A DNA stretch of 64,000 nucleotides, from assembly GCA_029561455.1 (NCBI GenBank), contig JAKQIY010000013.1:186001-250000 (forward strand), read 5' to 3'. Positions 13,572 through 30,963 of this stretch are shown here, piece by piece. Each line of letters begins with the position of its first letter. Within the stretch, counting starts at the first letter, position 1. This stretch comes from a bacterium (GTDB lineage Bacteria; Zhuqueibacterota; Zhuqueibacteria; Residuimicrobiales; Krinioviventaceae). The notes beneath the pieces were generated by a model, which saw only the letters and a list, made by a program, of their open reading frames with translations, ran no database searches and was not told the origin of the DNA. Made by a program: the position numbers and the translations under genes.

Positions 13572-14930
13572 GTGAAAAAAAGTTTATTGTTATTGGCGCT
13601 CGCCATTTTTTGTGGTTCGGCTTTAAGCGCAACTATCGATGTCCCGCCGGGAGACGGTACTTTGTCGCAAGCCATCACCGATGCCCAGAACGGCGATGTT
13701 TTACGACTGATCCCGGAAGCGCTTTATACTGAATCTGCAAATTCCAATTTCGGTACAATTACCGGTAAAACCATTACCATCGAAGCGGATGGGGACGGTT
13801 CAACAAAACCGGTTATACAACTATTAACTCCAGCTGATGATAATACCCTGATGTTCTTTCAACTGGCTGATCAATCCACCCTTACTTTACGAGGACTTGA
13901 ATTTAATGGCGCGCAGGGTGACATTGCTACGGTGGTCAATTTTATTAATTTTACAATGGGTGATTTCCCGTCTCCTGCTACTATAAAAAAGATCGTGGTT
14001 GATAATTGCATTATTCATGATCTGAAAGAGCATGTCATCCATGCCGGGAATACCGAAATGGCTTCCTATGTATTGGTTGATTCCACGATTGTTAATAATG
14101 TGATTATGAAAAATACCGGTACTGCGGTGTATTATAAATATGCCGGCGCTAATTATATTTCTGTTACCAATTCCACGTTTGATACAATCAACAGTTATGG
14201 TATGCGTATAGCCGGGCCGGGTTATTCCAACCTGCCCGATAATACTCCGGTTGTTATCATTGATCATACCACCTGGTATAACATTGGCACAACAGATGGC
14301 AGGGAGATAATTCTGGGCGAAAAAGGAACATTCCTGAATAACTGGACGGTGAGCAATTCCATTTTTGTCAAACAGGTGTTAAAGAGTAAAACTGTAATTA
14401 ATATTAAAGAGACGGTCTCTCCAGAAATCGCTGTAATTAATAATATTTGCTTGTGGGATGTCGGTGCGCGCGTGTGGCGCGATCACCCGGTCAGCGATAC
14501 GTTGAATGTCGATCCGGGCTTTCTCGATCCCGATAACAGTGATTTTACCTTGCCGGCCGGTTCGCAGTTACTGACGTTTGGCTCGAACGGCAAAGCTATT
14601 GGCGATCCGCGCTGGGCGACTAATGTCAGCGCTGTTGAAAATAATGCTCGCAACCAGGCAGCGCCGGCGCAGTTTTCACTGGCGCAAAATTATCCCAATC
14701 CCTTCAACCCGGCCACTAAAATTTCCTTCACCCTCGACAAAGCCGGAATGACGGAACTGGTTGTGTATGACCTGTTGGGTCACAAAGTAGCTGTACCTGT
14801 TCAACAGGTAATGTCCGCCGGAGAACACCATATTGTATTCGATGCTCAAAATTTATCCTCTGGCGTTTACGTGTACCGGCTTTACTTCGCAGGTCGCTCT
14901 TTAAGCAATAAAATGATGTTTATCAAGTAA
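13572..14930 (+). CDS. Secreted right-handed beta-helix protein with sorting domain
   Basis: 452 aa from GTG 13572, with a GGAGG site 6 nt upstream. Signal peptide ~1-19 (SALSA). Residues ~20-355 form a parallel beta-helix: TLSQAITDAQNGDVLRLIPE opening, GKTITIEADG, GLEFNGA, VDNCIIHDLKEHVIH, STIVNNV, NSTFDTINSYG. This resembles polysaccharide-lyase-like proteins (DUF4957/DUF5123 and chondroitinase-B-like folds) commonly found in pectin loci. I cannot identify catalytic residues, so activity is unproven. The C-terminus (NYPNPFNPATKISFTL, MMFIK) is a type-A sorting domain. It is the first gene after the HTCS and ends at a strong hairpin, so it may be its own transcript. Confidence 0.8.
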   Translation: MKKSLLLLALAIFCGSALSATIDVPPGDGTLSQAITDAQNGDVLRLIPEALYTESANSNFGTITGKTITIEADGDGSTKPVIQLLTPADDNTLMFFQLADQSTLTLRGLEFNGAQGDIATVVNFINFTMGDFPSPATIKKIVVDNCIIHDLKEHVIHAGNTEMASYVLVDSTIVNNVIMKNTGTAVYYKYAGANYISVTNSTFDTINSYGMRIAGPGYSNLPDNTPVVIIDHTTWYNIGTTDGREIILGEKGTFLNNWTVSNSIFVKQVLKSKTVINIKETVSPEIAVINNICLWDVGARVWRDHPVSDTLNVDPGFLDPDNSDFTLPAGSQLLTFGSNGKAIGDPRWATNVSAVENNARNQAAPAQFSLAQNYPNPFNPATKISFTLDKAGMTELVVYDLLGHKVAVPVQQVMSAGEHHIVFDAQNLSSGVYVYRLYFAGRSLSNKMMFIK

Positions 14931-14940
14931 ATACAACTTT

Positions 14941-14985
14941 TTACCCTGCCATTTTAAGGTTTTCTTCAAAATGGCAGGGTAATTT
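14941..14985 (+). terminator. Terminator hairpin
   Basis: Perfect 15-bp arms TTACCCTGCCATTTT (14941-14955) and its complement (14968-14982) around a 12-nt loop, followed by TTT. It lies 10 nt past the beta-helix gene. The T run is short, so some readthrough to the PL1 gene is possible. Confidence 0.75.
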
Positions 14986-15014
14986 CCCTTTACACAGAAC
15001 GGGTCGGGTTTTAT

Positions 15015-16778
15015 ATGCTTCAGTCTAACGGTTTATTTTTGGCAATCCGGAATATGATGAAAACTCTATTGAAAATTCAATGCAATGCAATTTATGGTCG
15101 TTTGTCATTAAATTGCCTGAGCATTATCGTTTGTACAATTTTAATCACCTTTACAACAAACCTGGTTGCCCAGCAGCCGGCTTTTCCGGGCGCGGAAGGC
15201 GCCGGTAAATATACCGTGGGTGGACGGGGTGGGGTGGTTTATGAAGTAACCAATCTAAACGACAGCGGCGCCGGCAGTTTGCGTGATGCCGTCAAAGCCA
15301 ACGGGCCACGCACTATTGTTTTCCGGGTATCGGGAACGATCATTTTGAAATCAGCTCTTAATATAGATAAACCAAATCTTACTATTGCCGGACAAACTGC
15401 TCCCGGCGACGGTATATGCCTGCGCGGATACCAGTGTGTTGTTAAAGCGAATGATGTAATTATTCGCTATATGCGCTTTCGCCTCGGCGATGAAACCGGT
15501 GTGGATACGGATTGTTTCTGGGGACGATACTATAAAAATATTATCCTCGATCATTGTTCGGCCAGCTGGAGCGTGGATGAAGTAATGTCGTTTTACGGCA
15601 ACGAGAATTTTACCATGCAATGGTGCCTGGTTGCCGAAAGCCTGTATATGTCCAACCATCCCAAAGGCGCGCATGGTTATGGCGGAATTTGGGGCGGCAA
15701 AAATGCTTCCTTTCATCACAATCTTATCGCTCACCATTCCAGCCGTACACCGCGCTTCTCCGGTGGGGAAACGACTCCTTGTGAGAATGTCGATTTTCGC
15801 AATAACGTGATCTATAATTGGGGATTTAACAGCGCTTATGGCGGCGAAAGCGGTAAAATCAATATGGTAGCGAATTATTATAAAGCGGGTCCCGCTACCA
15901 AAAGCAGCGTTAAAAACCGCATTGTGCAGCTTACGGACGGCAACGGCGAGTGGTATATTGAAGATAATTTCGTTGCCGGTTATCCGGCAATTACCGAAAA
16001 CAATTGGGCCGGCGGGGTACAGGGCAGTTATGCAAATGAAGCAATTTCCAGGGTTACAACACCGAATCCATATACCCCTGTTACAGAACAAACCGCCGAG
16101 GAAGCTTACTTGTTGGTTCTGGAAAATGTCGGCGCCAACTTGCCGGTTCGCGATGCTGTAGATAACCGCATCATCAACGATGTTAAAACCGGCGCGGCAA
16201 CCTGCGATGGGTATTATTATGAAATAAACCAGGGTTTCAGCGATACTGCGGTTGTGCGCGGGATCATCGATTCCCAGAATGATGTGGGAGGGTGGCCGGA
16301 GTTAGCGAGTCTTTCCGCTCCGGCAGATACCGATCATGACGGGATGCCGGATGAATGGGAATCCGCTAATGGCTTGAACCTGAATGACGATTCCGACAGA
16401 AACCTGGTCGCCGAAAATGGCTATACCATGCTGGAAAATTATCTCAACAGCCTGGTCGATTCCGGCCAGACCCTGGTACAACACCGCCAGGCTGAGCCGG
16501 GGTATTTTAGTTTGCTGCAAAATTATCCCAACCCCTTTAACATGAATACAAAAATTACTTTTACAATCGACAAGAGCGATCTCGTCACAATAAAAATATT
16601 TGATATTACCGGACGGCTTGTAAAGAACCTTTACCGCCAAATCTGTACACCTGGAACATACCATGTAGAATGGAACGGCGTGAACGATTGGGGGAACGCT
16701 GTTGCCACGGGTATCTATTTCTGTGAATTGTCGATTAAGTCAGGTAAATCTAGTATGAAAATGCATTTACTTCGTTGA
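15015..16778 (+). CDS. Pectate lyase, polysaccharide lyase family 1, secreted
   Basis: 587 aa from ATG 15015; ATGs at 15054 and 15057 are alternatives, as no clear ribosome site favours one. The hydrophobic signal ends near NLVAQQ. The lyase domain (about 55-430) opens with FPGAEGAG, GGRGG and YEVTNLNDSGAGSLRDAV. It has the beta-helix ladder, WSVDEVMSFYG and the RTPR signature (Arg244/Arg247), where family 1 carries its catalytic arginine. It cleaves de-esterified polygalacturonan by beta-elimination, usually with calcium. Residues ~435-485 hold a calcium-loop repeat (DTDHDGMPDEWE). The tail NYPNPFNMNTKITFTI with a FlgD-like fold is the sorting domain, so the enzyme should reach the cell surface or medium. 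Confidence 0.92.
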   Translation: MLQSNGLFLAIRNMMKTLLKIQCNAIYGRLSLNCLSIIVCTILITFTTNLVAQQPAFPGAEGAGKYTVGGRGGVVYEVTNLNDSGAGSLRDAVKANGPRTIVFRVSGTIILKSALNIDKPNLTIAGQTAPGDGICLRGYQCVVKANDVIIRYMRFRLGDETGVDTDCFWGRYYKNIILDHCSASWSVDEVMSFYGNENFTMQWCLVAESLYMSNHPKGAHGYGGIWGGKNASFHHNLIAHHSSRTPRFSGGETTPCENVDFRNNVIYNWGFNSAYGGESGKINMVANYYKAGPATKSSVKNRIVQLTDGNGEWYIEDNFVAGYPAITENNWAGGVQGSYANEAISRVTTPNPYTPVTEQTAEEAYLLVLENVGANLPVRDAVDNRIINDVKTGAATCDGYYYEINQGFSDTAVVRGIIDSQNDVGGWPELASLSAPADTDHDGMPDEWESANGLNLNDDSDRNLVAENGYTMLENYLNSLVDSGQTLVQHRQAEPGYFSLLQNYPNPFNMNTKITFTIDKSDLVTIKIFDITGRLVKNLYRQICTPGTYHVEWNGVNDWGNAVATGIYFCELSIKSGKSSMKMHLLR

Positions 16779-16848
16779 TAAATGATTTGAAAATAACGGA
16801 TTGAAATTCGATTATATGAACCCTGGCAAGAGTAATTAAGGAGTGGTT

Positions 16849-19800
16849 ATGCAATTACAACACTTTAATTTACGGCGGATTATCCCGGTTTTTGTGGCGC
16901 TGATATTGATTTATGCAACACTTTTACCGGCGCAAACCCGCAGCCGGATTGCCGGAACCGTCATTGACGCCGAATCCGGCGAACCACTACCCGGTGTGAA
17001 TATAATCATTGAAGGGACCAGCCTGGGAGCAGCATCAGGCATTAACGGCCAGTATGTAATCGTCAATGTGCCCGTGGGGACCTATCGTCTGCGGGCTACA
17101 ATGATGGGCTATGAAGGGCAGGTAATTACCGATGTCATGGTTTCGCTTGACCGGTTGACCAGGATCGATTTCCGGCTTGTACCTACCGTCATTCAGGGCA
17201 GCGAGGTTGTGGTCATTGCTAAAAAGGATGAATTGCATAAAGAAGTATCCAACACCCAACTGGTTGTCAATGATGTTCAATTACAGGATGCTTCCGGCAT
17301 TCGAGAAATCAATGCCTTTTTAACCAAACTGCCGGGTGTTTCGGAAGAGAATGGTTTTCTTACTATTCGTGGCGGGTCTGCCGACCAGACGGGAATGATG
17401 GTAAACGGCATGTCGTATTTTAATGCCGCAGCCGGAAATGCCGAAACCAGTATCCCGCTTAGCGCTATCGAGCAGGTTTCACTCATGTCTGGCGGTTATA
17501 ATGCGGAATATGGAAATTTCCGTTCCGGACTCATTAATGTAACCACAAAATCCGGCGATAAAAGCGGCTATCATGGCACTTTTAGTTATTCCCGCGATCA
17601 AATGCATATTCGCCGTTTTGGCGATTCCTTTTATGATACTAATAATCCGGTACTCAAACCCTTTCTCGATCCTGCAGTTGCTTTTACCGGTACCGATGTT
17701 GCCTGGAAAGACGATCCTTATAAACTGGAGCAATATCCCCGCTTTACCGGTTGGAATGCCGCCGCCGAAACCTTTAATAAAGGCAAAGCGCCCGAAGATC
17801 AGTGCACACCGCTGGATTATTACCTGTTAGCCTGCTGGATGCACATGACCGAACCGGATTATAAAGGATTAGAAAAATTGGGTTATACTGTTTCCGAGGA
17901 ACAAAAAAAGTTGTTTGCAGAACACCACATGGAAGAAGAGAATGCCGACTGGAATTTTGATGGCGGTTTTGGCGGCCCGGTGCCATTAGTCGGCGATATG
18001 CTGGGCGGGGCTACTTTTTATCTTTCCCATAATGCGCGGGAACGGAATTATATTATGCCGGTAGTGCGTTCCAGCGATGAAAACTATACAACCTTGCTCA
18101 CCGTAAAAAGTCAGCCCATGAAAAATCTTTCGGTCACATTGAACGGGCTGCACAAACGGCAGTTTGGGGTGAGTCCCATCCGTCCCGCCTTTGGCGATTT
18201 CCCGGATGCCGGCCGTGAGGGTGGATTTATGCCGATCAACAATATAAAGTACGTTTACGCCAATCCCGAATACTGGTACGATCCGCCGTTTTTCCCGCTG
18301 CTCGATCAAACAACGGTAATGACCGGCGTAACAATTAACCATGTGCTGAATTCATCGACATTTTGGGAATTGACGCTGAGCGCCATGAACATCAAAGATC
18401 ATTCCCCGGTTGGCGATAACCGCAACCAGACCGTTATTACCCGATTCGGTCCTTTTGCCGTTACCGAAATGCCCTATGGCAAAATGCAATATGGTACTAA
18501 TACTGTGGACGGCTATACCTATCCCAGTTACGATGCCCTACCGGGTATTTCGCGCCGTTTTCGTAGAAAAGAGGGCGATCTGTATGATAATATAAAAGTC
18601 GGCCAATACCGCGCCAAGTTTGATATAGCTTCCCAGGTCAATTTGCATCATTATCTAAAGGGAGGTTTTGAGTATAACTATATTGATCTGAACCACAAGT
18701 TCTGGGAAAAATGGAACGAGAATTATTATAATGTTTATGAGTTTAATTACCATCGCACCCCCAGCCAAACCGGCTTTTACCTGCAGGATCAGATCAGCCT
18801 GGAGGCAATTGTTGCCAACCTGGGCCTGCGGCTGGATTATTATTATGGCGGCGGCGGGAAATGGCCGACCGGCGATGCCTTTGCTGTTGATGCTTTTACA
18901 CCACAAACAGTGGAAAGCGATTCCGTATTGTTCCATTACCTGGAACAGGGCCGTTCCTATATTTGGGATACCTGGGTGGCTTATGATAAAGAGCATCCCG
19001 GTTTTCTGCAACCGGTAAAAAATCATTTTACCGTCAGTCCCAGGATAGGTATATCGTTCCCCATTACCGCTCAGTCCAAGTTCTACTTTAACTATGGACA
19101 TTTCCGCTCCAATCCGCCCTATTATACAATGTATCTGTATCGTTATCGTTATACCAAAAATGGTTTGTACGATATGTCCAATCCCAATCTGGCGCCGCCG
19201 CGTACAATATCTTATGAACTGGGTACCGCTTATAATTTTTATGAAAATTATGTATTACGAATTGCCGGTTATTCGAAGGATGTGACCGGGCAACATGGTC
19301 AGGTAACCTACCAGAACGCCGACGGCAGTATCGATTATGATGCCTGGGCTAACAATGAGTATGAAGATATTCAGGGTGTGGAAATAAACCTGGCAAAAAA
19401 TGATAATAGCTGGCTGACCGGCTGGATCAATTTCAATTATATTTTAAAAAAATCGGGACTTACCGGGCGCGACATAATCACAGAAGTAACAATAAACAAT
19501 GATCAGGAAGGATTATATTCAGGTCAGGAAAGCCGTTCTTTACCCGTACCCAAATTAAATGCCAATGTTACATTTCGAACCCCCCGCCATTGGGGGCCGG
19601 ATGTCTTTGGCGGCAGTGTGCTGGGTAACTGGAATATGACCTTGTTTGCCGAATGGGAGAGAGGTGATTATTTTACCTGGAATCCTTTGAATGAACTGCA
19701 TTTGAATAACAACCTGCGTTGGCCGGATTACTTTATGATCGATCTTAAACTGACCAAGACATTTCAGGTTGGCGGTTTAGCGACCACATTTTTTGTTGAT

Positions 19801-20088
19801 ATCAGCAACCTGTTCAACTTTAAAGTCAGTTTAATGGAAAAAGGCTGGTGTTTTAACGAAGACGCCGGCGATGATATAAAATATTTTTCTTCATTACGTC
19901 TGCCAATGTATGCATCTTCCAGGTACGATGATCTGCGCGCCAAAAATCCAGGCTATTATATTGCCGGAAACGACCAGGTCGGCGACTTACGCTCCAAAGA
20001 CAAACCCTATATCAACGATCCCAATTATCCCTTTTGGTTGTATGGCGAACCGCGTGATATCTGGTTTGGATTACGCTTTAGTTTTTAG
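16849..20088 (+). CDS. TonB-dependent receptor of the pectin locus
   Basis: 1079 aa from ATG 16849, preceded by AAGGAG at 5 nt; a GTG at 16843 overlaps the ribosome site. Signal peptide, then a carboxypeptidase-regulatory-like domain (AGTVIDAESGEPLPGVNI, ~25-110), a TonB plug (DASGIREINAFLTKLPGV, IRGGSADQTGMMVNG, ~130-230) and a long 22-strand-type barrel ending GLRFSF. It should carry pectin oligosaccharides across the outer membrane (inference from neighbours). It has the size and place of a SusC protein, but the next gene is not a SusD; instead it is followed by a 725-aa exported protein and a PorV-like barrel. The gaps of 37 and 22 nt suggest one operon. Confidence 0.92.
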   Translation: MQLQHFNLRRIIPVFVALILIYATLLPAQTRSRIAGTVIDAESGEPLPGVNIIIEGTSLGAASGINGQYVIVNVPVGTYRLRATMMGYEGQVITDVMVSLDRLTRIDFRLVPTVIQGSEVVVIAKKDELHKEVSNTQLVVNDVQLQDASGIREINAFLTKLPGVSEENGFLTIRGGSADQTGMMVNGMSYFNAAAGNAETSIPLSAIEQVSLMSGGYNAEYGNFRSGLINVTTKSGDKSGYHGTFSYSRDQMHIRRFGDSFYDTNNPVLKPFLDPAVAFTGTDVAWKDDPYKLEQYPRFTGWNAAAETFNKGKAPEDQCTPLDYYLLACWMHMTEPDYKGLEKLGYTVSEEQKKLFAEHHMEEENADWNFDGGFGGPVPLVGDMLGGATFYLSHNARERNYIMPVVRSSDENYTTLLTVKSQPMKNLSVTLNGLHKRQFGVSPIRPAFGDFPDAGREGGFMPINNIKYVYANPEYWYDPPFFPLLDQTTVMTGVTINHVLNSSTFWELTLSAMNIKDHSPVGDNRNQTVITRFGPFAVTEMPYGKMQYGTNTVDGYTYPSYDALPGISRRFRRKEGDLYDNIKVGQYRAKFDIASQVNLHHYLKGGFEYNYIDLNHKFWEKWNENYYNVYEFNYHRTPSQTGFYLQDQISLEAIVANLGLRLDYYYGGGGKWPTGDAFAVDAFTPQTVESDSVLFHYLEQGRSYIWDTWVAYDKEHPGFLQPVKNHFTVSPRIGISFPITAQSKFYFNYGHFRSNPPYYTMYLYRYRYTKNGLYDMSNPNLAPPRTISYELGTAYNFYENYVLRIAGYSKDVTGQHGQVTYQNADGSIDYDAWANNEYEDIQGVEINLAKNDNSWLTGWINFNYILKKSGLTGRDIITEVTINNDQEGLYSGQESRSLPVPKLNANVTFRTPRHWGPDVFGGSVLGNWNMTLFAEWERGDYFTWNPLNELHLNNNLRWPDYFMIDLKLTKTFQVGGLATTFFVDISNLFNFKVSLMEKGWCFNEDAGDDIKYFSSLRLPMYASSRYDDLRAKNPGYYIAGNDQVGDLRSKDKPYINDPNYPFWLYGEPRDIWFGLRFSF

Positions 20089-20125
20089 ACTAGAATGTAT
20101 TGCATTGTGTAAAATGGAGTTGTGA

Positions 20126-22303
20126 ATGAATACAAATTTCAAGATTCTAAATAAAAACCGGTTGTCCCGGACTTTATATTCTATACTGATATTTGTTCTA
20201 CTTTTGGGATTCGGAACTAACGTTAAGGCGCAAACCCAACCGGAACTGGCCAAAGCCCTGGTTAAAACCGGTCATGTGTGGATGGGCGTAACCGCCAATG
20301 GCGACAAAGGGAGTTTTGATTACCGCGCCGGGTTTTTCCCTAATGATTATAACATTATCGGTATCCGCGGCCAGGAACAGGATGCCTGGGCCGGCGCCGG
20401 TTTCCGTTTGGTTACTACCAATTGGGTAGATCCGCTCGACACCTTGCATACCGTTGCCATTTATGGGCCAACCAATGATTTTATGCCCATCGGTAAAGTT
20501 GTAACCCCAATGACCAATTACATTCGTTATAAATATACCGAACAGGAAATTGAGTTTCAAAAAGTAGAGCTGGAAAATTTCGGGACCTGGGCTCCTGAAA
20601 AATTCAGCGCCGGGACTTTTGATCAGATTGTTGAAGTCACTACTGAAAATATTCTAGAAGTGCAGGTGCATCGCAAAATTTTGGCCTGGTCGCAAAATTA
20701 TAATAACGACTATGTTATCGTCGATGTAGAATTGACCAACGTCGGCAATGACACCTTGAAAGATTTTTACATCAATATCGAGTCTAACGGCGATAATACC
20801 TTCCGTTCCAACGGTTCAAATCCTTCGCCTGCCGCCAATGAACAATTTGACCCGGCTACAACCTGGCAGCATTATTACGGCGGCCGGGTTGGCGATTCCC
20901 TGCGGGTTTTCTATGAATATAGCGCCGATGATCCCCAGGCGCCGGGCGATAATATGGGCGCGCCGGTCTCTACACAGGGAGGTCGGCTTATTAATGCCAA
21001 ATTTATCTGGTATTCCATTCTGCATGTCTCTGCTCAACCTTATAATAATGCTGTTGAAGATGTGGATGATTTTTTACAGCCTAAAGTAACCTATGTTGGT
21101 AAAAGCAATCTTTTTCCTTACCAGAGTCAGGGCGATGAATACGGGGATAAAAATTTCTGGGCGATTCGCGGCGAGTATGCCGATTATTTCCCGATGAGCG
21201 GCTCTACCTGGCCGAACACACATCACGCCGGCAACACTGATGAACAGGGCAGCGCCGATTATGGCAGCCACCCGGCCGGCACCCATCAGGATAACAATTC
21301 CAAAATGTATAGCAGTTTTGGCCCGTATGATAATTTTGCTCCCGGTAAAAAGATACGAATTGTTTATGCCGGCGGCTTTTCCGGGCTCGATTTGAAAATG
21401 TCCAAAGAAGTTGGCCGAAAATGGCTTAAAGGAACTCTGGAAGACCCTCCGGGCATACCGAACGTGCAAACCGGATTTTTCCCGGCCAATTTTGTATTTC
21501 CCACTGAGGCTACGGAAATAGATAAACGCAAAGACCGCTGGGTGAGCACCGGGGTAGATTCCGTCATGAAAAGCGCCTGGCGCGCCAGGTGGAATTTTGA
21601 TCATGATTATAAAATCCCTCAGGCGCCGCCGCCGCCGGAAAACCAGGTTATTACCGGTTTAGGTACCGGAGTGGAAATAAAATGGACCGATCCCGAAGCG
21701 GAAAATATGGATAGCTTTGCCGGGTATCGAATCATGCGCCGCATTTCCAATATGGATACAGTTTTTTATGAACAAGTTTATAATTCCGGCGCCGACGATA
21801 AAGCGGAAGAACATCTGTATGTCGATAAAGATGTGCTTGCCGGAGCACAGTATTACTATTATGTCCAAGCCAAAGCCCAAATTGCAGAGAATGATCCTTT
21901 TGCTGACCCCACTACGCTCGGCAAGCTCATTTACAGCAGCAGGATATTGCAGCCCAATATTTACTGGGTCAATCCACCGCGGTCTTCTCAAACGGATTTG
22001 ACGAAAATACGTATTGTCCCCAACCCATATAATATCAATGATCCCTTGCTGGAACAACATGGTTGGACGGATCAACGGGGTATTCAGTTCTTTAATCTGC
22101 CGGGCAAAGTAACCATTAAAATATTTACCGAAAATGGCGATCTGGTGCAGACCATTGAACATGACAGTCCGGTTAGTTCCGGTTATCAATTCTGGGATAT
22201 GAGCACCCGCAGTCAGCAGATCATCAACAGCGGTGTTTATATTGCCGTTTTCCAGGCCCCCGGAGGCGATGTCGCTTATCAAAAGTTATTGGTGATCCGT
22301 TAA
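20126..22303 (+). CDS. Exported receptor-partner protein with Fn3-like domain
   Basis: 725 aa. ATG 20126 follows GGAG. Signal peptide ~1-36 (NVKAQ). The middle (40-480) is beta-rich with no family I can name; it contains DYRAGFFPNDYNIIGIRGQEQDAW-like and VIVDVELTNVGNDTL segments. About 500-605 is an Fn3-like domain (VEIKWTDPEAENMDSFAGYRI). The last ~100 residues (RIVPNPYNIND to YQKLLVIR) look like a variant sorting tail, with PNPYN in place of PNPFN. It is not a SusD: the alpha-helical TPR fold expected there is missing. Its position directly after the TonB receptor suggests a surface partner that binds or docks the ligand (inference). Confidence 0.75.
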   Translation: MNTNFKILNKNRLSRTLYSILIFVLLLGFGTNVKAQTQPELAKALVKTGHVWMGVTANGDKGSFDYRAGFFPNDYNIIGIRGQEQDAWAGAGFRLVTTNWVDPLDTLHTVAIYGPTNDFMPIGKVVTPMTNYIRYKYTEQEIEFQKVELENFGTWAPEKFSAGTFDQIVEVTTENILEVQVHRKILAWSQNYNNDYVIVDVELTNVGNDTLKDFYINIESNGDNTFRSNGSNPSPAANEQFDPATTWQHYYGGRVGDSLRVFYEYSADDPQAPGDNMGAPVSTQGGRLINAKFIWYSILHVSAQPYNNAVEDVDDFLQPKVTYVGKSNLFPYQSQGDEYGDKNFWAIRGEYADYFPMSGSTWPNTHHAGNTDEQGSADYGSHPAGTHQDNNSKMYSSFGPYDNFAPGKKIRIVYAGGFSGLDLKMSKEVGRKWLKGTLEDPPGIPNVQTGFFPANFVFPTEATEIDKRKDRWVSTGVDSVMKSAWRARWNFDHDYKIPQAPPPPENQVITGLGTGVEIKWTDPEAENMDSFAGYRIMRRISNMDTVFYEQVYNSGADDKAEEHLYVDKDVLAGAQYYYYVQAKAQIAENDPFADPTTLGKLIYSSRILQPNIYWVNPPRSSQTDLTKIRIVPNPYNINDPLLEQHGWTDQRGIQFFNLPGKVTIKIFTENGDLVQTIEHDSPVSSGYQFWDMSTRSQQIINSGVYIAVFQAPGGDVAYQKLLVIR

Positions 22304-22325
22304 TTCTATTAAGGAGATCGTCGTA

Positions 22326-23342
22326 ATGAAATATAAAAATTGCTTTTTATTTTTTCTTGGCCTGGTATTCTTTATGGCACATGTTGTGAAGGCCCAGGTT
22401 GGCCTGGACAAGGTGGCGCAAAGCACGATGAATTTCCAGCTTGTCAGTTTATCTCCCCAAGCCAGCGCCATGGGCGAAGCGTTTTGTGCGGTAGGCGCCG
22501 GCGCCGAGGGTATCTTTTTCAACCCGGCAGGGATGGTAGAAACCACAACAAAGTTTGAATTAAAGATGTCCATTACCCAATGGATTGCCGATATTAATTA
22601 CATGGCCGGCGCTATGGTATGGAATACCGGCAATTGGGGTTCTTTCGGATTCAGCATCATGTCGGTTGATTACGGAACGATTAACGGTACCAGCTTGCTG
22701 GCGCCGGGAGAATCGGGTTTGTACCCGATCGGTTTCAAGGATACCGGTGAAGTGAGCAATGTCGGGGCATATTCATTCGGCTTGACTTATGGCCGGGCCA
22801 TAAGCAGCCAGTTTTTTATTGCCGGTAATATGCGTCTTGCCGGCCAGAACCTCGGCCGGAGTATGGTTGCAACCGGTATGAAAGATAATAACGCCACCAA
22901 ACTGGTTTTTGACGCCGGTGTAAAATATTATACCGGTTTGAAGAGTTTCCGCTTTGGTATGGCAATACGTAATTTTTCTTCCAACATCAAACGTGAGGAA
23001 ATTGAAGAACAACTGCCGCTTTTATTTACTATGGGTGTTGCCATGAATATAATGGATGTTATTGACCCTGCTCACGCCGCCGATAATTCACTGTTGTTGG
23101 CTGTAGATTTCTTACATCCGAATAACTATTCGGAAAGGATGAATATCGGACTGGAATATAAAATATTGGGTTGCATTGCTTTACGTGGCGGTTATCAAAC
23201 CAACCGCGATCTTGCTTCCTGGTCCGCCGGTCTCGGTTTAAATACCACAATAGGCAAAAATAATATCGAATTTGATTATTCCTATTCCGCTTTTGATATT
23301 TTTGATGAAGTGAATCGTTTTGCAATCGGCATCGCTTTTTAG
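22326..23342 (+). CDS. PorV/PorQ-family (UPF0164-like) outer-membrane protein
   Basis: 338 aa, ATG 22326 with AAGGAG 9 nt upstream. Signal peptide ~1-23 (VVKAQ). Then come SLSPQASAMGEAFCAVGAGAEGIFFNPAGM, the family hallmark in two pieces, and about fourteen amphipathic beta strands ending FAIGIAF. This FadL-like barrel family includes PorV, which in T9SS shuttles CTD proteins at the outer membrane. Here it is the third gene of the TonB receptor unit, 22 nt after the 725-aa protein. It could serve secretion or attachment of the local CTD proteins, or be part of the uptake complex; the sequence does not decide between these. Confidence 0.82.
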   Translation: MKYKNCFLFFLGLVFFMAHVVKAQVGLDKVAQSTMNFQLVSLSPQASAMGEAFCAVGAGAEGIFFNPAGMVETTTKFELKMSITQWIADINYMAGAMVWNTGNWGSFGFSIMSVDYGTINGTSLLAPGESGLYPIGFKDTGEVSNVGAYSFGLTYGRAISSQFFIAGNMRLAGQNLGRSMVATGMKDNNATKLVFDAGVKYYTGLKSFRFGMAIRNFSSNIKREEIEEQLPLLFTMGVAMNIMDVIDPAHAADNSLLLAVDFLHPNNYSERMNIGLEYKILGCIALRGGYQTNRDLASWSAGLGLNTTIGKNNIEFDYSYSAFDIFDEVNRFAIGIAF

Positions 23343-23435
23343 AATACAATTCCAAACTATTAAATAATAATTAATAGTAAACTGAATATAACCGTAATAA
23401 TTTAAAAAGTACAATAAACAACAGAAAGGAAGAAA

Positions 23436-26400
23436 ATGAAAAAAGTTTTGTTTCTCCTGGTAGTAGTTGCAGGAATCCTTGGTTCCGCAACTTTGTTTGC
23501 CCAAACACCGGCAATGGTGAATTGGTCATGTATGCCGCCGGATAGTCAGCAAGTTTCGGCGGTGGGTGGCAATCTTTCCGGTTTCCCGGAAATTGGCAGT
23601 CCCGGTTTTGTTGTACGCGATTATAATAACGGTCCCGGCCCTGACCAACGTTGGTGGCCTTATAGCGACGGCGCAGCGGTCAGTTGGGGAGAAGAGACCG
23701 AACAGGTCAATACCCGCTGGGTACAGTTCGCCGTCTATCCCGATCCAAATTTTGACTTTCATGCCGACAGCATGGTTATTTATCTCGGCGCCAAAGGTAC
23801 AAATATGATTCGCGCCAATGTTGTTACTTCATTTGACACCTCTTTTACACTCACCACAGTTTTGAACGATACGACCCTGGAACTGGTCAAAGATACTGAT
23901 TCCTTATACACTTTTATTCTAAATCAGGATGTGCTGAATGGCGATACACTCTATGTTCGCATTTATCCCTGGTACACCGGTGGTCAATCAACCTCAAAAT
24001 ACCTATATGTACGGGATTGCACTATTTATGGCGCTACCCAGTCTTTAGGATTTCCGGCTTCCGCTACCTGGGAACTGACTGATCCGGGTTCCGGCGGTAC
24101 AGGGTTAACCGTTGCAGTTTCCGGCCTGGTAACCGGACAGGAAGAGTTGTTGAATAATACCGAGATCAATAAATACTCCGGCCCGGATAACAGCCAGCGG
24201 GTGCGTATTGCCGGCAATGCCTGGCCTGCCAACCAGCTAACCCTTATCGATTCGGTTTTTATGCAGTTCGCCGTTGCTCCCAATGCCGGCTGCAAACTGA
24301 CCGTAACCTCGGTTGCTCTTGGCATTGCCGCGGCCAGTATTACCACTATGAAAGCCGATATTTATTGCGATACCGACTCGAATTTTACTGCGCCAACCCA
24401 GATCGCTTATACAACTCCCGATACCAGCGGCAATAACTATCTGCCAACCGATGCCCTGGTTCCGGTGCTGGCTAATCCCGGCTTGGTCGTAGAGGATGGG
24501 CAAACTTTTTATCTGCGGGTCTTTCCATGGGTGGATAATGATCCGGATGTGCGCACAGGAAAATATGTTTGTATTAAGAATGTGGTTATTGGCGGTGAAA
24601 TCGAAGGGACGGTTGTTTTTGACCCCCCTACGGTAACCACCACTGAAGTAACCGGCATTGCTACAACATTTGCCGGCAGCGGCGGTAATGTAACCAGCGA
24701 TGGCGGTTCACCCGTCACAGCCCGCGGCGTTTGCTGGAATACCACCGGCGCGCCGACCATCGCCGATGCAAAAACTGAAGATGGCGAAGGAGCAGGTTCC
24801 TTTACCAGCCAGGTTACCGGTCTCAATGCGGGAACAACCTATTTTCTGCGCGCTTATGCAACCAACGTCGCCGGAACTGCTTATGGTGAAGAAGTAACTT
24901 TTGCTACGCTGGATTCGACAACTGTGCCTACTGTAATTACCGGCGCAGTGAGCAATGTTATGGTTACCACCGCGCAATGCAGCGGTGAAGTAACTATGTG
25001 GGGCGGCGATTCGGTCATTGTGCGGGGTGTTTGCTGGAATACGACCGGTAACCCGACCATTGCGTATGATTTTACGATGAACGGCAGCGGCCTGGGTGAA
25101 TTTACCAGTATTCTCTATCCACTGGTGGAGAACACCACCTATTATGTACGCGCTTATGCCGGCAACAGTATTGGCATCGGTTACGGACAGGTCGATTCCT
25201 TTACAACCCAGATTCCTGCTCCACCGGTTACAAAAATAGTTACTGCCGACGGCAGCGGCGATTATACCTCAGTGCAGGCTGCCTTTAATGAAGTGCCGGA
25301 TTTTTACACCGGGCCTTATACTATTTACGTCAAAGCGGGCGTCTATTATGAAAAGCTGTTGCTGGATCGCAATAAAACCAATGTCATTTTGCGAGGTGAA
25401 GATCCACAGACTACCATTCTGACTTTTGATGATTACGCCGGCAAAGCGGGTGGCACTTCAAACTCGTATAGTGTGGGCATTGACGCCGATGATTTTATCG
25501 CCATGGATATTACCTTCCAGAATACGGTGGTTAATGACGGATCGGTGAACGACCAGCAAGCCGTGGCTTTGCGGGTGAATGGCGACCGGCAGGGTTATTT
25601 CAATTGCCGGTTACTCGGCTACCAGGATACCTTTTACGCCTGGGGCGGACGCGGCACCGGACGGGTATATATGAAGAATTGTTACATCGAAGGATCGGTC
25701 GATTTTATTTTTGGCCGGGATATCGTTGTTTTTGATAGCTGCCAGGTCCATGTCAATCGTGAGGGTGGCGCACTCACTGCCGCCAGCACCGAACCGGAAA
25801 CTCTATTCGGTCTGGTTTTCCGGTATTGTGCCATTACCGCCGATTCGATCGGTTTCGATGGCCGTCCCATAACCAGCTTTATTTTAGGACGTCCCTGGCA
25901 GAAATCGCCGCGCACCGTATTTATGTATTGCGATGAACCGGCATCCGTCGATCCCGCCGGTTGGGCAACCTGGAATGTCGCACCGGCGTTGTATGCCGAA
26001 TATATGTGTGCCGGCCCCGGCGCCGATTTCTCCAATCGAATCGCTATTGGTCGGCAGTTGACCGATGAAGAAGCCGCCGATTATACGCTGGAAAACATGT
26101 TTGCAAAAACCAGCTTTCCCGGATTCGCTTATGACTGGCTGCCGACCGAACCGGTGATCACTGCCGTATCCGACAGCAGGTTGACCGATGTCATTCCGAC
26201 CTCCTATGCCTTGCAGCAGAATTATCCCAATCCGTTCAACCCGGTTACCAGTATTCAATACGCTTTGCCGAAAAGCGGCAAGGTCAGGATCAGTATATTT
26301 AATGTACGCGGCGAACTTGTGGATATGCTGGTCGATTCCGTACAGCCTGCCGGTATCCATGAAATAAAAGTAAATGCTGTTAATTACGCTACCGGTGTGT

Positions 26401-26462
26401 ATTTTTATAAAATAGAGGCCGGCAGTTTTGTGCAGGTCAAGAAAATGCTTCTTATCAAGTAA
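23436..26462 (+). CDS. Multidomain pectin methylesterase (CE8), secreted
   Basis: 1008 aa, ATG 23436 with AGAAAGGAAG upstream. Signal peptide ~1-22. Two related beta-sandwich modules follow (about 25-210 and 215-390; both carry VQFAVYP/MQFAVAP and LYVRIYPW/FYLRVFPW), probably carbohydrate-binding. Then two Fn3-like repeats with RGVCWNTTG (about 395-590). The esterase domain spans about 597-905, with GYQDTFYAW (Asp731), VDFIFGRD (Asp756) and LGRPWQ (Arg819), matching the catalytic Asp-Asp-Arg of family CE8. It removes methyl groups from homogalacturonan, making substrate for the PL1 and GH28 enzymes. The C-terminus NYPNPFNPVTSIQYAL to MLLIK is the sorting domain. Confidence 0.92.
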   Translation: MKKVLFLLVVVAGILGSATLFAQTPAMVNWSCMPPDSQQVSAVGGNLSGFPEIGSPGFVVRDYNNGPGPDQRWWPYSDGAAVSWGEETEQVNTRWVQFAVYPDPNFDFHADSMVIYLGAKGTNMIRANVVTSFDTSFTLTTVLNDTTLELVKDTDSLYTFILNQDVLNGDTLYVRIYPWYTGGQSTSKYLYVRDCTIYGATQSLGFPASATWELTDPGSGGTGLTVAVSGLVTGQEELLNNTEINKYSGPDNSQRVRIAGNAWPANQLTLIDSVFMQFAVAPNAGCKLTVTSVALGIAAASITTMKADIYCDTDSNFTAPTQIAYTTPDTSGNNYLPTDALVPVLANPGLVVEDGQTFYLRVFPWVDNDPDVRTGKYVCIKNVVIGGEIEGTVVFDPPTVTTTEVTGIATTFAGSGGNVTSDGGSPVTARGVCWNTTGAPTIADAKTEDGEGAGSFTSQVTGLNAGTTYFLRAYATNVAGTAYGEEVTFATLDSTTVPTVITGAVSNVMVTTAQCSGEVTMWGGDSVIVRGVCWNTTGNPTIAYDFTMNGSGLGEFTSILYPLVENTTYYVRAYAGNSIGIGYGQVDSFTTQIPAPPVTKIVTADGSGDYTSVQAAFNEVPDFYTGPYTIYVKAGVYYEKLLLDRNKTNVILRGEDPQTTILTFDDYAGKAGGTSNSYSVGIDADDFIAMDITFQNTVVNDGSVNDQQAVALRVNGDRQGYFNCRLLGYQDTFYAWGGRGTGRVYMKNCYIEGSVDFIFGRDIVVFDSCQVHVNREGGALTAASTEPETLFGLVFRYCAITADSIGFDGRPITSFILGRPWQKSPRTVFMYCDEPASVDPAGWATWNVAPALYAEYMCAGPGADFSNRIAIGRQLTDEEAADYTLENMFAKTSFPGFAYDWLPTEPVITAVSDSRLTDVIPTSYALQQNYPNPFNPVTSIQYALPKSGKVRISIFNVRGELVDMLVDSVQPAGIHEIKVNAVNYATGVYFYKIEAGSFVQVKKMLLIK

Positions 26463-26489
26463 TTGACAGACAGCCCGGTTTTTGGATGA

Positions 26490-26520
26490 TATCCTGTCCC
26501 CGGTTTGCGGGGACAGGATA
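26490..26520 (+). terminator. Hairpin after the pectin methylesterase gene
   Basis: A 12-bp perfect stem (26490-26501 with 26509-26520) and a 7-nt loop, 28 nt past the stop. No T run follows, so it may protect the 3' end or slow the polymerase rather than be a classical terminator. Confidence 0.55.
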
Positions 26521-26648
26521 GCCATTAATTACTTTTCCGGGCAAACTTTTACGCAGAATAGGTAACAAGCATGTTTCATCGTAAACAGTAAAATTGTTGT
26601 GTTGCAAACTTGATACGTACGGATCACTAGTCATTAAGTAAAATTAAT

Positions 26649-27833
26649 ATGATTTTTCATTTCACCCAAAAAAGTTTTATCAGTTCCCTGTTCACTATTT
26701 TAGTGTCCGGCGGGTTGTTATTCCTGCTAGTAATGGCTGCCTGTGCCCAGGAAGAAGATAACGACAACCAAAACAGCTCTTCTTTTGAAGAAGAACCAGC
26801 CCAGGATGAATTTAGAGATTTTTTGCTGGATCATGAGCCCGAATGGTTCAAATCACCGCAAGCGCAAATGATCGCGGAAAATATATTACTATTTCAACGC
26901 GCTTCCGGCGGTTGGCCGAAAAATATCACTCTCAACCGACCACTCACCGCTGCTGATAAAAAGAAACTCGCCGAGTATAACAATGAACCTTTTGCAACTA
27001 TTGATAATGGCGCTACTTTTACAGAAATGCGTTTTCTGGCTCAATTTCATGCCGTTTCAAAAAAACAGGATTATATTCTGGCCTTTTTAAAAGGATTGGA
27101 TTACCTGCTGGAAGCGCAATATGCTAATGGCGGCTGGCCGCAATTTTATCCCTTACGCAAGGGTTATTACTCTCATATCACCTTTAATGATGACGCCATG
27201 GTCGGCGTGTTGCGGCTGCTCCGCGATATTGCCGGTTCCCGGCCCGGCTATGAATTTGTAGATAGCGACCGCCGGGAACGCGCCCGGTTGGCTTGGCATA
27301 ATGGAATTGATTGTATATTAAAGACACAGATCAAAGTTAATAACCAGTTAACCGCCTGGTGCGCCCAGTATGACGAAAAAACCCTGCTGCCGGCCAAAGC
27401 GCGAAATTATGAACTGGTTTCTCTGAGCGGCGATGAAACCGTAAATATCATCCGTTTTTTAATGGAAATTGACAATCCATCCCCGCAGATAGTTGCTGCT
27501 ATACAAAGCGCAGTAAAATGGCTCGATGATGTAAAACTGACCGGTATGCGCGTTATCCGGCAACCAGATCCTAAAAGTCCAACCGGTTTTGATAAACAAG
27601 TAATCGCCGATCCGGACGCACCGCCGTTGTGGGCCCGTTTTTATTTAATTGGTTCAAACAAGCCGTTCTTTAGCGACCGGGACGGTAAAATTTATTACGA
27701 TCTGGCGCAAATCTCTTCCGAACGGCGCAATAACTATGGCTGGTTAGGCTACTGGCCGGAGGATGTGCTGAATCGGTATTACCCAAAGTGGCAAAAGAAA
27801 TGGGCGCCGGACTGGAATGTGCTGGCTCACTGA
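26649..27833 (+). CDS. Pectate lyase family 10 (PelA-like), predicted lipoprotein
   Basis: 394 aa. A long N-terminal hydrophobic segment ends in VMAAC (lipobox, Cys near residue 33), then an acidic linker (EEDNDNQ), so membrane anchoring is likely. The lyase domain (~70-390) shows family-10 features: ASGGWPKN, ATIDNGATFTEMRFLA, NGGWPQFYPLRKGYYSHITF with NDDAM, LTAWCAQYDEKTL and ELVSLSGDE, and a C-terminal FFSDRDGKIYYD. It cleaves polygalacturonan to unsaturated oligomers. Unlike PL1 and CE8 it has no C-terminal sorting domain. No good ribosome site is seen before ATG 26649. The GH28 gene follows after 71 nt. Confidence 0.9.
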   Translation: MIFHFTQKSFISSLFTILVSGGLLFLLVMAACAQEEDNDNQNSSSFEEEPAQDEFRDFLLDHEPEWFKSPQAQMIAENILLFQRASGGWPKNITLNRPLTAADKKKLAEYNNEPFATIDNGATFTEMRFLAQFHAVSKKQDYILAFLKGLDYLLEAQYANGGWPQFYPLRKGYYSHITFNDDAMVGVLRLLRDIAGSRPGYEFVDSDRRERARLAWHNGIDCILKTQIKVNNQLTAWCAQYDEKTLLPAKARNYELVSLSGDETVNIIRFLMEIDNPSPQIVAAIQSAVKWLDDVKLTGMRVIRQPDPKSPTGFDKQVIADPDAPPLWARFYLIGSNKPFFSDRDGKIYYDLAQISSERRNNYGWLGYWPEDVLNRYYPKWQKKWAPDWNVLAH

Positions 27834-27904
27834 ATATGGCGGTTAGCGACAGGCGTAGGGAGAGAGAAATAAATGTGGTTTTGGAATTGAAATCTGAGGA
27901 TATA

Positions 27905-29617
27905 ATGAGGCATACATTCCCGGCAAAGCGTTCCGGCCTGGTTATAATGATTTTATTTTTATCATTTATCAGTTCTTCTAGTGATACGCACACCCCGGCT
28001 ACGAGTCCGGCAAGCGATATGGCTGTACAACCAATAACCAGCGCCCCGTTTGTTATGGCTGAAATCGCCGAACCGGTTTTCCCCGCCCAGAGTTATAATA
28101 TCCGGAAGTTCGGCGCTGTTGGCGACGGACAAACTATGAACACTGATGCCTTTGCCCAGGCAATACAGGCTTGCGCCGCCGCCGGCGGCGGTAAGGTGGT
28201 GGTACCGGACGGATTATGGCTTACCGGCCCAGTAATACTTGCCGGAAATATCAACTTGCATCTTGAACCGGGCGCGGTGATCATTTTCAGCCGTAATTTT
28301 AATGATTATCCCCTGGCGCCGGTTATTTTTGAGGGTGTTGCTCAGTTTCGCTGCCAGTCTCCAATCTCCGGTGAGAACCTGGAAAACATTGCGATTACCG
28401 GACAGGGAATAATTGACGGTTCCGGCGACGCCTGGCGGCCGGTGAAGAAATTTAAAATGACATCCAACCAATGGAAAAATTTATTGGTATCAGGTGGGGT
28501 TGTAAACCGCGACGGTTCCGTGTGGTGGCCTACGGCGACGGCGCTGAATGGCGAGTCTTTACTGGCCGGCCTGGTCAAGAATCAAAAAGAGTTAACGCTT
28601 GAAAATGTCACTCCGGCCCGTGATTACCTGCGTCCGGTTATGGTGCGCCTGGTTAATTGCCGCAATGTGTTGCTGGACGGCCCGACATTCCAGAATTCAC
28701 CATCATGGAACATTCATCCCCTGTTATGTGAAAACGTTATTATTCGCAATTTGACCGTTCGCAACCCCTGGTATTCGCAAAACGGTGACGGACTGGATCT
28801 GGAATCATGTAATAATGTGTTGGTCTCAAATAATTGGTTTGATGTCGGTGATGATGCGATCTGCCTGAAATCCGGCAAGGATCGGGAAGGCCGGGAGCGT
28901 GGCCGCGCCAGTGAAAATATTATCATTCGGGACTGTACAGTCTTTCATGGTCATGGCGGCGTTACCGTCGGCAGTGAAATGTCGGGTGGAATTAGAAATA
29001 TTTTTGTGAATAACTGCACATTTATCGGCACCGATGTCGGTCTGCGTTTTAAAAGTTTACGGGGCAGAGGTGGTGTGGTCGAAAAAATTTTTATTCACAA
29101 TGTGCGAATGGTGGATATTCCTAATGAAGCGGTGCTTTTTGACCTGTTTTATGAAAATGATTCCAGCAAACCGGCTGCGGAGAAACCGATTCCGGCAGTA
29201 AGTGAATTAACCCCGATTTTCCGTGATATTCATTTTAGCAACATTTTTTGCCGCAATGCCGGTACGGCAATTTTTTTAAATGGTTTACCGGAATTACCCT
29301 TGCAGCACATTGACTTTGACAGCGTTTTTATATCCAGTTCCAGGGGGGTAGTGTGCAACAATATCGAGCAGGTAATTTTCTCCAGGGTAACTTTCATTGC
29401 CAAACAGGAACCGGTATTTCATTTATCGCAGTGCCGGGAAACGGTGCTAATTCCGTCACGCATCAAGCAGCCGGTCAAAGTATGGGTAAAAGTAAATGGC
29501 GCAAAAAGCAAAGCTATTTATATTGATGGCGCCGCTATCGACTCGTCAGCGCCGGCAATTATCTTTGGCGATAATGCCCCTGCCGAAGCGGTTATTTTCC
29601 GAAACTGGCATAAATAA
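27905..29617 (+). CDS. Polygalacturonase, glycoside hydrolase family 28
   Basis: 570 aa from ATG 27905, which has GAGGA 4 nt upstream and is followed by a signal peptide. The open frame extends back to 27788 across the end of the PL10 gene without a better start. Family-28 catalytic set: NGDG (Asp295), GDDAIC (Asp316/Asp317), GHGG (His350) and RFK (Arg381, Lys383). The beta-helix opens with YNIRKFGAVGDG. It hydrolyses galacturonan, often exo-acting on oligomers in this type. There is no sorting domain, so a periplasmic location is the simplest reading. Last gene of the pectin run; it meets the NtrC-like gene tail to tail with only 11 nt between stops. Confidence 0.92.
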   Translation: MRHTFPAKRSGLVIMILFLSFISSSSDTHTPATSPASDMAVQPITSAPFVMAEIAEPVFPAQSYNIRKFGAVGDGQTMNTDAFAQAIQACAAAGGGKVVVPDGLWLTGPVILAGNINLHLEPGAVIIFSRNFNDYPLAPVIFEGVAQFRCQSPISGENLENIAITGQGIIDGSGDAWRPVKKFKMTSNQWKNLLVSGGVVNRDGSVWWPTATALNGESLLAGLVKNQKELTLENVTPARDYLRPVMVRLVNCRNVLLDGPTFQNSPSWNIHPLLCENVIIRNLTVRNPWYSQNGDGLDLESCNNVLVSNNWFDVGDDAICLKSGKDREGRERGRASENIIIRDCTVFHGHGGVTVGSEMSGGIRNIFVNNCTFIGTDVGLRFKSLRGRGGVVEKIFIHNVRMVDIPNEAVLFDLFYENDSSKPAAEKPIPAVSELTPIFRDIHFSNIFCRNAGTAIFLNGLPELPLQHIDFDSVFISSSRGVVCNNIEQVIFSRVTFIAKQEPVFHLSQCRETVLIPSRIKQPVKVWVKVNGAKSKAIYIDGAAIDSSAPAIIFGDNAPAEAVIFRNWHK

Positions 29618-29623
29618 CAAACG

Positions 29624-29651
29624 GTTGATTATTCATCAACATTGTATTTTT
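29624..29651 (+). terminator. Possible terminator for the GH28 gene
   Basis: GTTGAT-TATTC-ATCAAC followed by ATTGTATTTTTTT, starting 7 nt past the GH28 stop. The stem is only 6 bp and overlaps the 3' end of the convergent NtrC-like gene. Confidence 0.4.
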
Positions 29652-30963
29652 TTAATTTCCTCAACAGCGTATCGCGGTGAATTCCCATCATGTCGGCCGC
29701 CAGGCTTTTATTGCCGTTTGCCATGTTCAACACCATTAATATGTGCTCTTTTTCAACATCATCCATGAGCAAACTTTTCGGTGGTACTGCCTGTTTGACG
29801 CTTTCCTTCTCTGCCGGTTCGGACAGGCGGGAAGGGAGGTCGAAAATCTGGAGCTCTTTTTCTTCACAAACGGACACAGCCGTTCTGATCACATTTAACA
29901 ATTCCCTGACATTACCAGGCCAGTAATAATTCTGCAATTTAGCTAATGCTTCATTGCTGATGCCTATTTCACCCAAACCAAACCTGGCTGCAAATTCCCC
30001 GGTAAAAAAACTAGCCAAAACCGGAATATCTTTTTTTATTTCACGCAGCGCCGGCATTTGGATATGAATGATCCCCAGTAAATAATACAGATATTTATTA
30101 AATTGCCCATTCGATACCAACTGGTGCAAATCGACGCTGGTAGACGCGATGAGCCGGACATTGACCGGAACCGTTGAGCCACTGGTTTTCATTTTACCTG
30201 TTTCCAGCAGTTCAACCAACCTGGCTTGCACAACAGCGCTGGAATTGGCGATTTCATCCAGGTATAATGTGCCGCCTTCTGCACGGGTAATAATCCCTTT
30301 GCGCGGATTTTTGTCGCTGCCGAACAGTTCCGTTTCCAGCAACGCATCGGCAAAAGCAGCGCAATTGACGGTATAAAACTCCCCGGCCTGCCGTGAACCG
30401 GATTGGTGGATGCTGAATGCCGCCATTTCTTTGCCGGCGCCGCTCTCGCCGCTTATCAACACCGGCAAATCCGTAGCCGAAACCAGTTTAATTAATTCCC
30501 TGATCGATTTAATGCGGGGTGAATTGCCGATTATATTTTTATTTTTTATCAGGAAATCAATATGAGCATGACTGGCCGTTTTACCGTTTTTAATCTGTTC
30601 CGTTATCTCCCGTATCTGGGCTATAAAATCATCCATAACAATGGGTTTGATAATATAATGAAAAGCGCCGTGTTTTATTGATTGAATGGCGTCTTTGATA
30701 GAACCATAACCGGTAATCATAATAACAAATGTTTCGGGACGGACGGCTTTGACCTTTTTTAATAGTTCCAGGCCGGACATCCCGGGCATCTTGATATCGG
30801 AAATGACTATATCTACTTCATTACGTTCCATTAACTCCAACGCCCTGGCGCCGTTATTGGCGGTTATACAGGCAATCCCTTCCAGGTCAAATACATCTTT
30901 GATCACTTTGAGACAATTTTCTTCATCGTCTACCAATAAAATTGTTGGATTATAATCTTGCAT
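29629..30963 (-). CDS. NtrC-like response regulator with collapsed sigma54 loop
   Basis: 444 aa. Receiver domain at 1-120 (Asp56 in IVISDIKMPGMSG), AAA+ domain ~145-370, and a Fis-type helix-turn-helix at the end (GNKSLAADMMGIHRDTLLRKL). Walker A (GESGAGKE) and Walker B (GGTLYLDEI) are present. However, the stretch between ELFG and GGTLYLDE is SDKNPRKGIITRAE: the GAFTGA loop that contacts sigma54 is deleted, by about ten residues. The arginine fingers are also changed (FNKYLYYLL where FREDLYYRL is usual). It is therefore unlikely to open sigma54 promoters and may act as a DNA-binding switch or repressor. It is encoded 34 nt after the kinase at 30998-32533. Confidence 0.88.
   Translation of the reverse strand: MQDYNPTILLVDDEENCLKVIKDVFDLEGIACITANNGARALELMERNEVDIVISDIKMPGMSGLELLKKVKAVRPETFVIMITGYGSIKDAIQSIKHGAFHYIIKPIVMDDFIAQIREITEQIKNGKTASHAHIDFLIKNKNIIGNSPRIKSIRELIKLVSATDLPVLISGESGAGKEMAAFSIHQSGSRQAGEFYTVNCAAFADALLETELFGSDKNPRKGIITRAEGGTLYLDEIANSSAVVQARLVELLETGKMKTSGSTVPVNVRLIASTSVDLHQLVSNGQFNKYLYYLLGIIHIQMPALREIKKDIPVLASFFTGEFAARFGLGEIGISNEALAKLQNYYWPGNVRELLNVIRTAVSVCEEKELQIFDLPSRLSEPAEKESVKQAVPPKSLLMDDVEKEHILMVLNMANGNKSLAADMMGIHRDTLLRKLKKYNVDE

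Follow-up and report, generated by a model that had tools for sequence, protein, structure and literature searches.

A two-component response regulator descended from the sigma54 activators appears, within one genus, to have become a DNA-binding switch that works independently of sigma54. We give this reading, which rests on sequence comparison and structure modelling, a probability of roughly 0.7. The gene lies in the 64,000-nucleotide stretch of DNA analysed here (the window), and Table 1 lists the features of its locus. G000 designates the source genome and G001 the sole other genome of the genus.

Table 1. Features of the regulator locus, in window coordinates.
Feature	Position	Strand	Basis
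NtrC-type response regulator without GAFTGA, 444 aa (P0001)	29629..30963	-	ORF, Pfam, orthologue alignment
Receiver domain, residues 8-117	30613..30942	-	Pfam, invariant columns, normal evolutionary rate
Phospho-acceptor D56 of receiver, kept	30796-30798	-	invariant columns
Walker A GESGAGK, residues 172-178, kept	30430..30450	-	sequence, alignment
Junction (K218/N219) of the 7-residue L1/GAFTGA deletion (21-bp, in-frame)	30309..30310	-	alignment, 12 intact orthologues
Walker B TLYLDEI, residues 232-238, kept	30250..30270	-	sequence, alignment
Sensor I: ATNRD-type motif replaced by STSVD (Asn to Ser at 276)	30130..30144	-	alignment
Arginine-finger segment: FRxDLYYRL replaced by FNKYLYYLL (R289 to N, R295 to L)	30076..30102	-	alignment
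Sensor II region WPGNVRE, residues 348-354, kept	29902..29922	-	invariant columns, alignment
Fis-type HTH, residues 401-440; recognition segment GIHRDTLLRKLKK same as in orthologues	29644..29763	-	Pfam, alignment, zero-length stem branch
Cognate histidine kinase (N-terminal receiver, HisKA, HATPase), 511 aa	30998..32533	-	Pfam, orthologous loci
3' region of regulator without palindromic sites or sigma54 promoter (both here in orthologues)	29206..29628	-	locus comparison

Domain architecture and motif losses

The regulator is encoded by an intact, stop-free reading frame of 444 codons and matches four Pfam models above cut-off: Response_reg, Sigma54_activat (the AAA+ core, residues 144-301), AAA_lid_14 (residues 307-390) and HTH_8. 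The order and homology of its receiver, AAA+ and Fis-type HTH domains, seen in the Pfam matches, in PDB matches over residues 7-442 and in a structure model, place it in the NtrC family of response regulators. The model rests on an alignment with 47 homologues; its mean pLDDT is 89.5, with values of 79-90 in the region of the deletion. Among solved structures, NtrX of Brucella matches it best; overall TM-scores are about 0.5, which reflects domain arrangement, and AAA+ domains alone match at about 0.84-0.91 of target length. The kinase gene lies directly upstream, and the kinase-regulator pair adjoins in orthologous loci wherever the contig extends far enough, except at one locus (L064), where the ORF table shows no kinase called next to the regulator. 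On the other side a convergent glycosyl hydrolase gene stops at 29617, 11 bases from the regulator. The plus-strand region 13572-29617 of the window is a pectin-degradation cluster, with pectinesterase, pectate lyase and glycosyl hydrolase 28 genes; it encodes a run of secreted proteins, several of which have C-terminal sorting domains.

A sequence-only reading of this gene had described it as intact, with Walker A, Walker B and the Fis-type DNA-binding end kept, no GAFTGA after ELFG, and its arginine fingers replaced. The alignment with orthologues bears out every element of that description. Walker A with its flank reads GESGAGKE, Walker B contains LYLDEI, and the switch Asn and a WPGNVREL segment in the sensor-II region are likewise retained, as are K106 and T84 among the invariant columns of the receiver. 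ELFG is followed by SDK and then by a seven-residue gap at the position of the orthologues' GAFTDAR, so the GAFTGA of loop L1 that marks sigma54-dependent enhancer-binding proteins is missing. Both arginine-finger positions (289 and 295), at which an alignment with 47 distant homologues shows more than 90% arginine, are replaced in G000 and G001 alike. Two features go beyond the earlier description: the ATN of sensor I has become TS, and divergence covers the entire AAA+ core, which is 47% identical within the genus versus 77% among orthologues.

Work on PspF and NtrC1 indicates that the loop touches sigma54 and that the arginine finger reaches the gamma-phosphate of the neighbouring subunit (review PMC7175178). 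Because the L1 loop and the arginine fingers are both absent, the regulator should have no usual motor activity; because the cis residues are retained, it probably still binds ATP.

A loss shared within the genus

A search of 22 genomes of the order found one orthologue per genome in 14 of them. These nearest relatives define an order-specific regulator, and a scan of named genomes for orthologues returned none, only relatives at 31-38% identity. The G001 regulator is 62% identical to that of G000, shares its gap and its sensor-I change, and has neither arginine (FNSELFQTL). All 12 orthologues outside the genus are intact, with GAFTDA and both arginines, at 46-51% identity to the G000 protein. 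They resemble it in the kinase-regulator pair and in the HTH recognition segment. The alignment thus demonstrates that the losses are common to the genus and absent from the other-genus orthologues, which answers the point, raised in the sequence-only reading, of whether the loss is conserved. No second intact copy of the regulator was seen in G000, where the next best match is 38% identical. Since rpoN is retained in both genomes and another 20 strong activator-type AAA+ domains occur in G000, sigma54 appears to be in use in the genus.

Two more activator-type AAA+ proteins of about 320 residues in G000 (L022, C52:1928-2383; L023, C29:70933-71400) lack both a receiver and GAFTGA; their arginine-finger segments are degenerate and their C-terminal end is Fis-like. 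The same loss may have occurred in them independently.

Relaxation of the protein is specific to particular domains. On a fixed tree, the distance of the AAA+ core from the orthologue root is 1.61 for G000 and 1.62 for G001, against a mean of 0.31 for the others, which corresponds to evolution about five times faster. The receiver (0.47 and 0.41 for G000 and G001, versus 0.47 for the others) and the HTH (0.38 and 0.34, versus 0.43) show no such acceleration, and the lid is intermediate (0.80 versus 0.45). Deep branches of the tree are poorly supported (31-72); this bears on where the genus stem is placed and leaves the contrast between domains untouched. A comparison of G000 with G001 shows saturation at fourfold sites (0.75), and second codon positions differ by 0.28 in the AAA+ core, 0.05 in the receiver and 0.07 in the HTH. 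From these domain distances, and from the second-position versus fourfold differences, the core is relaxed yet constrained and both ends are normally constrained. The regulator is therefore an NtrC-type protein whose L1 deletion sits in an intact gene that has been retained, with the input and DNA-binding domains under constraint. The earlier description of the losses as precise holds for the motifs, which are truly gone, and less well for the protein, as the entire core is relaxed about fivefold. Its view that the gene is retained under constraint and is not decaying is well supported by the sharing of the loss across the genus and by the normal rates of the receiver and HTH.

Ancestral promoter, sites and output genes

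In contrast to G000, all 12 intact loci have a sigma54 promoter, matching 8-10 of 10 consensus positions, before the gene that follows the regulator. It lies within 350 bp after the regulator, roughly 195-330 bases past the stop. Shuffled segments gave such a promoter in a mean of 0.71 of 12 loci (maximum 4), and regions downstream of other activator genes in 4 of 16. The corresponding segment contains no such promoter in G000 or G001. Upstream of the promoter, intact loci carry one to three palindromes of the TGYCGTAWWTTACGRCA type, where shuffling expects about 0.05; the weakest locus (in G002) has a single site with three mismatches. The sigma54 consensus was built independently of these regions. 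The palindrome patterns were built from them, and the palindrome counts are therefore descriptive. No palindromic site adjoins the regulator in G000 or G001, and the only three matches to ancestral sites in the window, each with three mismatches, equal chance expectation. The loss of the sigma54 promoter and its upstream sites from the neighbouring position supports well the independence from sigma54 that the sequence-only reading had suggested.

Two output genes have been lost as well. A fast-evolving ParA/MinD-like protein is the product of the gene following the regulator in 11 of the 12 intact loci, with weak CbiA/MinD Pfam matches in six of the 11; in G002 that gene encodes a small receiver. 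The ParA/MinD-like protein (L065:10467-11483 and its counterparts) has a partly degenerate nucleotide-binding motif and a predicted sigma54 promoter, and adjoins the two-component pair. In several intact loci an endonuclease III gene and a gene for a 157-residue single-domain receiver (L065:12589-13062) follow. A profile search for the ParA-like output gene in G000 and G001 found only weak matches to longer ParA-like proteins. The 157-residue receiver, 49-99% identical across nine other genomes of the order searched, is absent from both, whose only matches, at about 40%, are to receiver domains within longer proteins. Of the nine genomes, four (G003, G004, G006 and G008) belong to the same family and have this receiver without the regulator; the genus has thus kept the regulator and lost its neighbours, and the reverse has occurred elsewhere. 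In G004 the receiver gene lies on the same contig as a ParA-like gene, at most 250 bases from it.

Because the HTH recognition segment is unchanged, the regulator is expected to recognize the same type of site. Genome-wide counts of sites with up to two mismatches were at or little above control in G000 and G001 and yielded no convincing target, and sites with one mismatch fell mostly within genes. G000 contains a single exact palindrome (C8:16834), where about 0.01 would be expected by a hand estimate from pattern specificity. It lies about 105 bases before a small gene with a heavy-metal-associated domain, and the AT-rich stretch between them contains TATAAT. This palindrome is a candidate target only: in G001 no site matches the same pattern with one or no mismatch, and the heavy-metal-domain gene has no clear orthologue. 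Among intact lineages, an exact palindrome of the same type occurs far from the regulator locus, just before a gene for an FAD-dependent oxidoreductase-like protein (L080 position 5145; G015 C56:385144), and is a possible second target there.

Proposed mechanism, alternatives and known systems

In the mechanism we favour, the kinase would still phosphorylate the receiver, which would set the dimer or oligomer state, and the HTH would still bind palindromic DNA of the ancestral type. Without its sigma54-contact loop and trans arginine fingers, the AAA+ core would bind ATP in cis without forming a ring-shaped motor, and would now serve as a scaffold or oligomerisation module. Regulation, of either sign, would presumably proceed by contacting or occluding housekeeping-type promoters in the ordinary manner. 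The sequence-only reading had proposed a new role, as a sigma54-independent switch or a repressor; independence from sigma54 and the absence of decay are supported, and the new role itself is what we infer. A more specific version is tentative, and we lean somewhat against it as a whole: that a rewiring confined to this genus removed the output module, sites and sigma54 promoter, turned the motor into an ATP-binding pseudo-ATPase, and kept the kinase and the DNA-binding end for a new sigma70-type regulon. If true, the conversion of an enhancer-binding protein into an ordinary transcription factor would be traceable here.

Somewhat less probable again is a regulator that is now purely a repressor or competitor, binding the ancestral type of site and blocking promoters or rival activators with no activating contact. 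All known activation elements of the AAA+ core are lost and the DNA-binding end is kept, as such a protein would require, and Caulobacter NtrC does repress some sigma70 promoters (PMC10274813). However, the Caulobacter and Rhodobacter NtrC proteins without GAFTGA also activate, the G000 data favour neither activation nor repression, and the ancestral sites beside the gene are gone. Slow decay, with the regulator a relic on its way out once its output genes were lost, would fit the disappearance of the output module, sites and promoter and the fivefold rate of the AAA+ core. It is improbable, since the frame is intact in two species despite saturated synonymous divergence, second positions of the core stay well short of saturation, and the kinase is complete and 75% identical; the codon-position constraint, with the normal receiver and HTH rates, disfavours neutral decay. 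We think it a little more improbable still that the protein joins and modulates another activator-type regulator in mixed assemblies, with no targets of its own. The twenty other activator-type AAA+ domains would offer partners, and kept Walker motifs with lost arginine fingers would suit such a subunit, but the normal constraint on HTH and receiver is that of a DNA-binding regulator acting alone. Sequencing or assembly error, which the sequence-only reading would have accepted had orthologues with an intact GAFTGA been found, is ruled out, because although 12 other-genus orthologues do have the loop, G001, an independent congener at 62% identity, shares the gap and the same classes of replacement, and the reading stands.

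Sigma54 activators are described as strictly dependent on an ATP-driven ring. With intact sister lineages whose promoter and sites are still readable, the conversion of a motor-driven activator into a plain DNA-binding regulator could be placed on a tree. The case also cautions that matches to the Pfam family Sigma54_activat over-count sigma54 activators.

The proposed switch has close parallels. Loss of GAFTGA with a move to sigma70 promoters is known for the NtrC proteins of R. capsulatus and Caulobacter, the latter through an eight-residue deletion at genus level, and Caulobacter and Rhodobacterales NtrC act at sigma70 promoters (PMC10274813). These share with the G000 regulator an in-frame L1/GAFTGA deletion, at genus or order level, in a phosphorylated NtrC-type regulator, phosphorylation in G000 being predicted. 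As cited there, R. capsulatus NtrC needs ATP binding and not hydrolysis, which matches the residues kept in G000; Caulobacter NtrC reportedly requires its Walker A and Walker B residues, which points to hydrolysis (PMC10274813). Unlike Caulobacter NtrC, the G000 regulator has also lost both arginine fingers and the sensor-I Asn, and its locus and targets differ. Brucella NtrX (PDB 5m7n/5m7o/5m7p), crystallised with ATP and with ADP, shares the whole-length NtrC architecture without a GAFTGA loop; it is 31-32% identical and, in contrast, keeps the arginine-finger segment as FREDLFHRL. TyrR, DhaR, HupR and VpsR derive from sigma54-activator ancestors and have ceased to interact with sigma54 (PMC3162934), as the G000 regulator appears to have done, although their inputs differ; as older isolated cases, TyrR, VpsR and HupR allow placement of such a conversion on a tree less directly. 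NtrC proteins without GAFTGA are therefore already known, and what is added here is the loss of the arginine fingers, of the target promoter and of the output genes.
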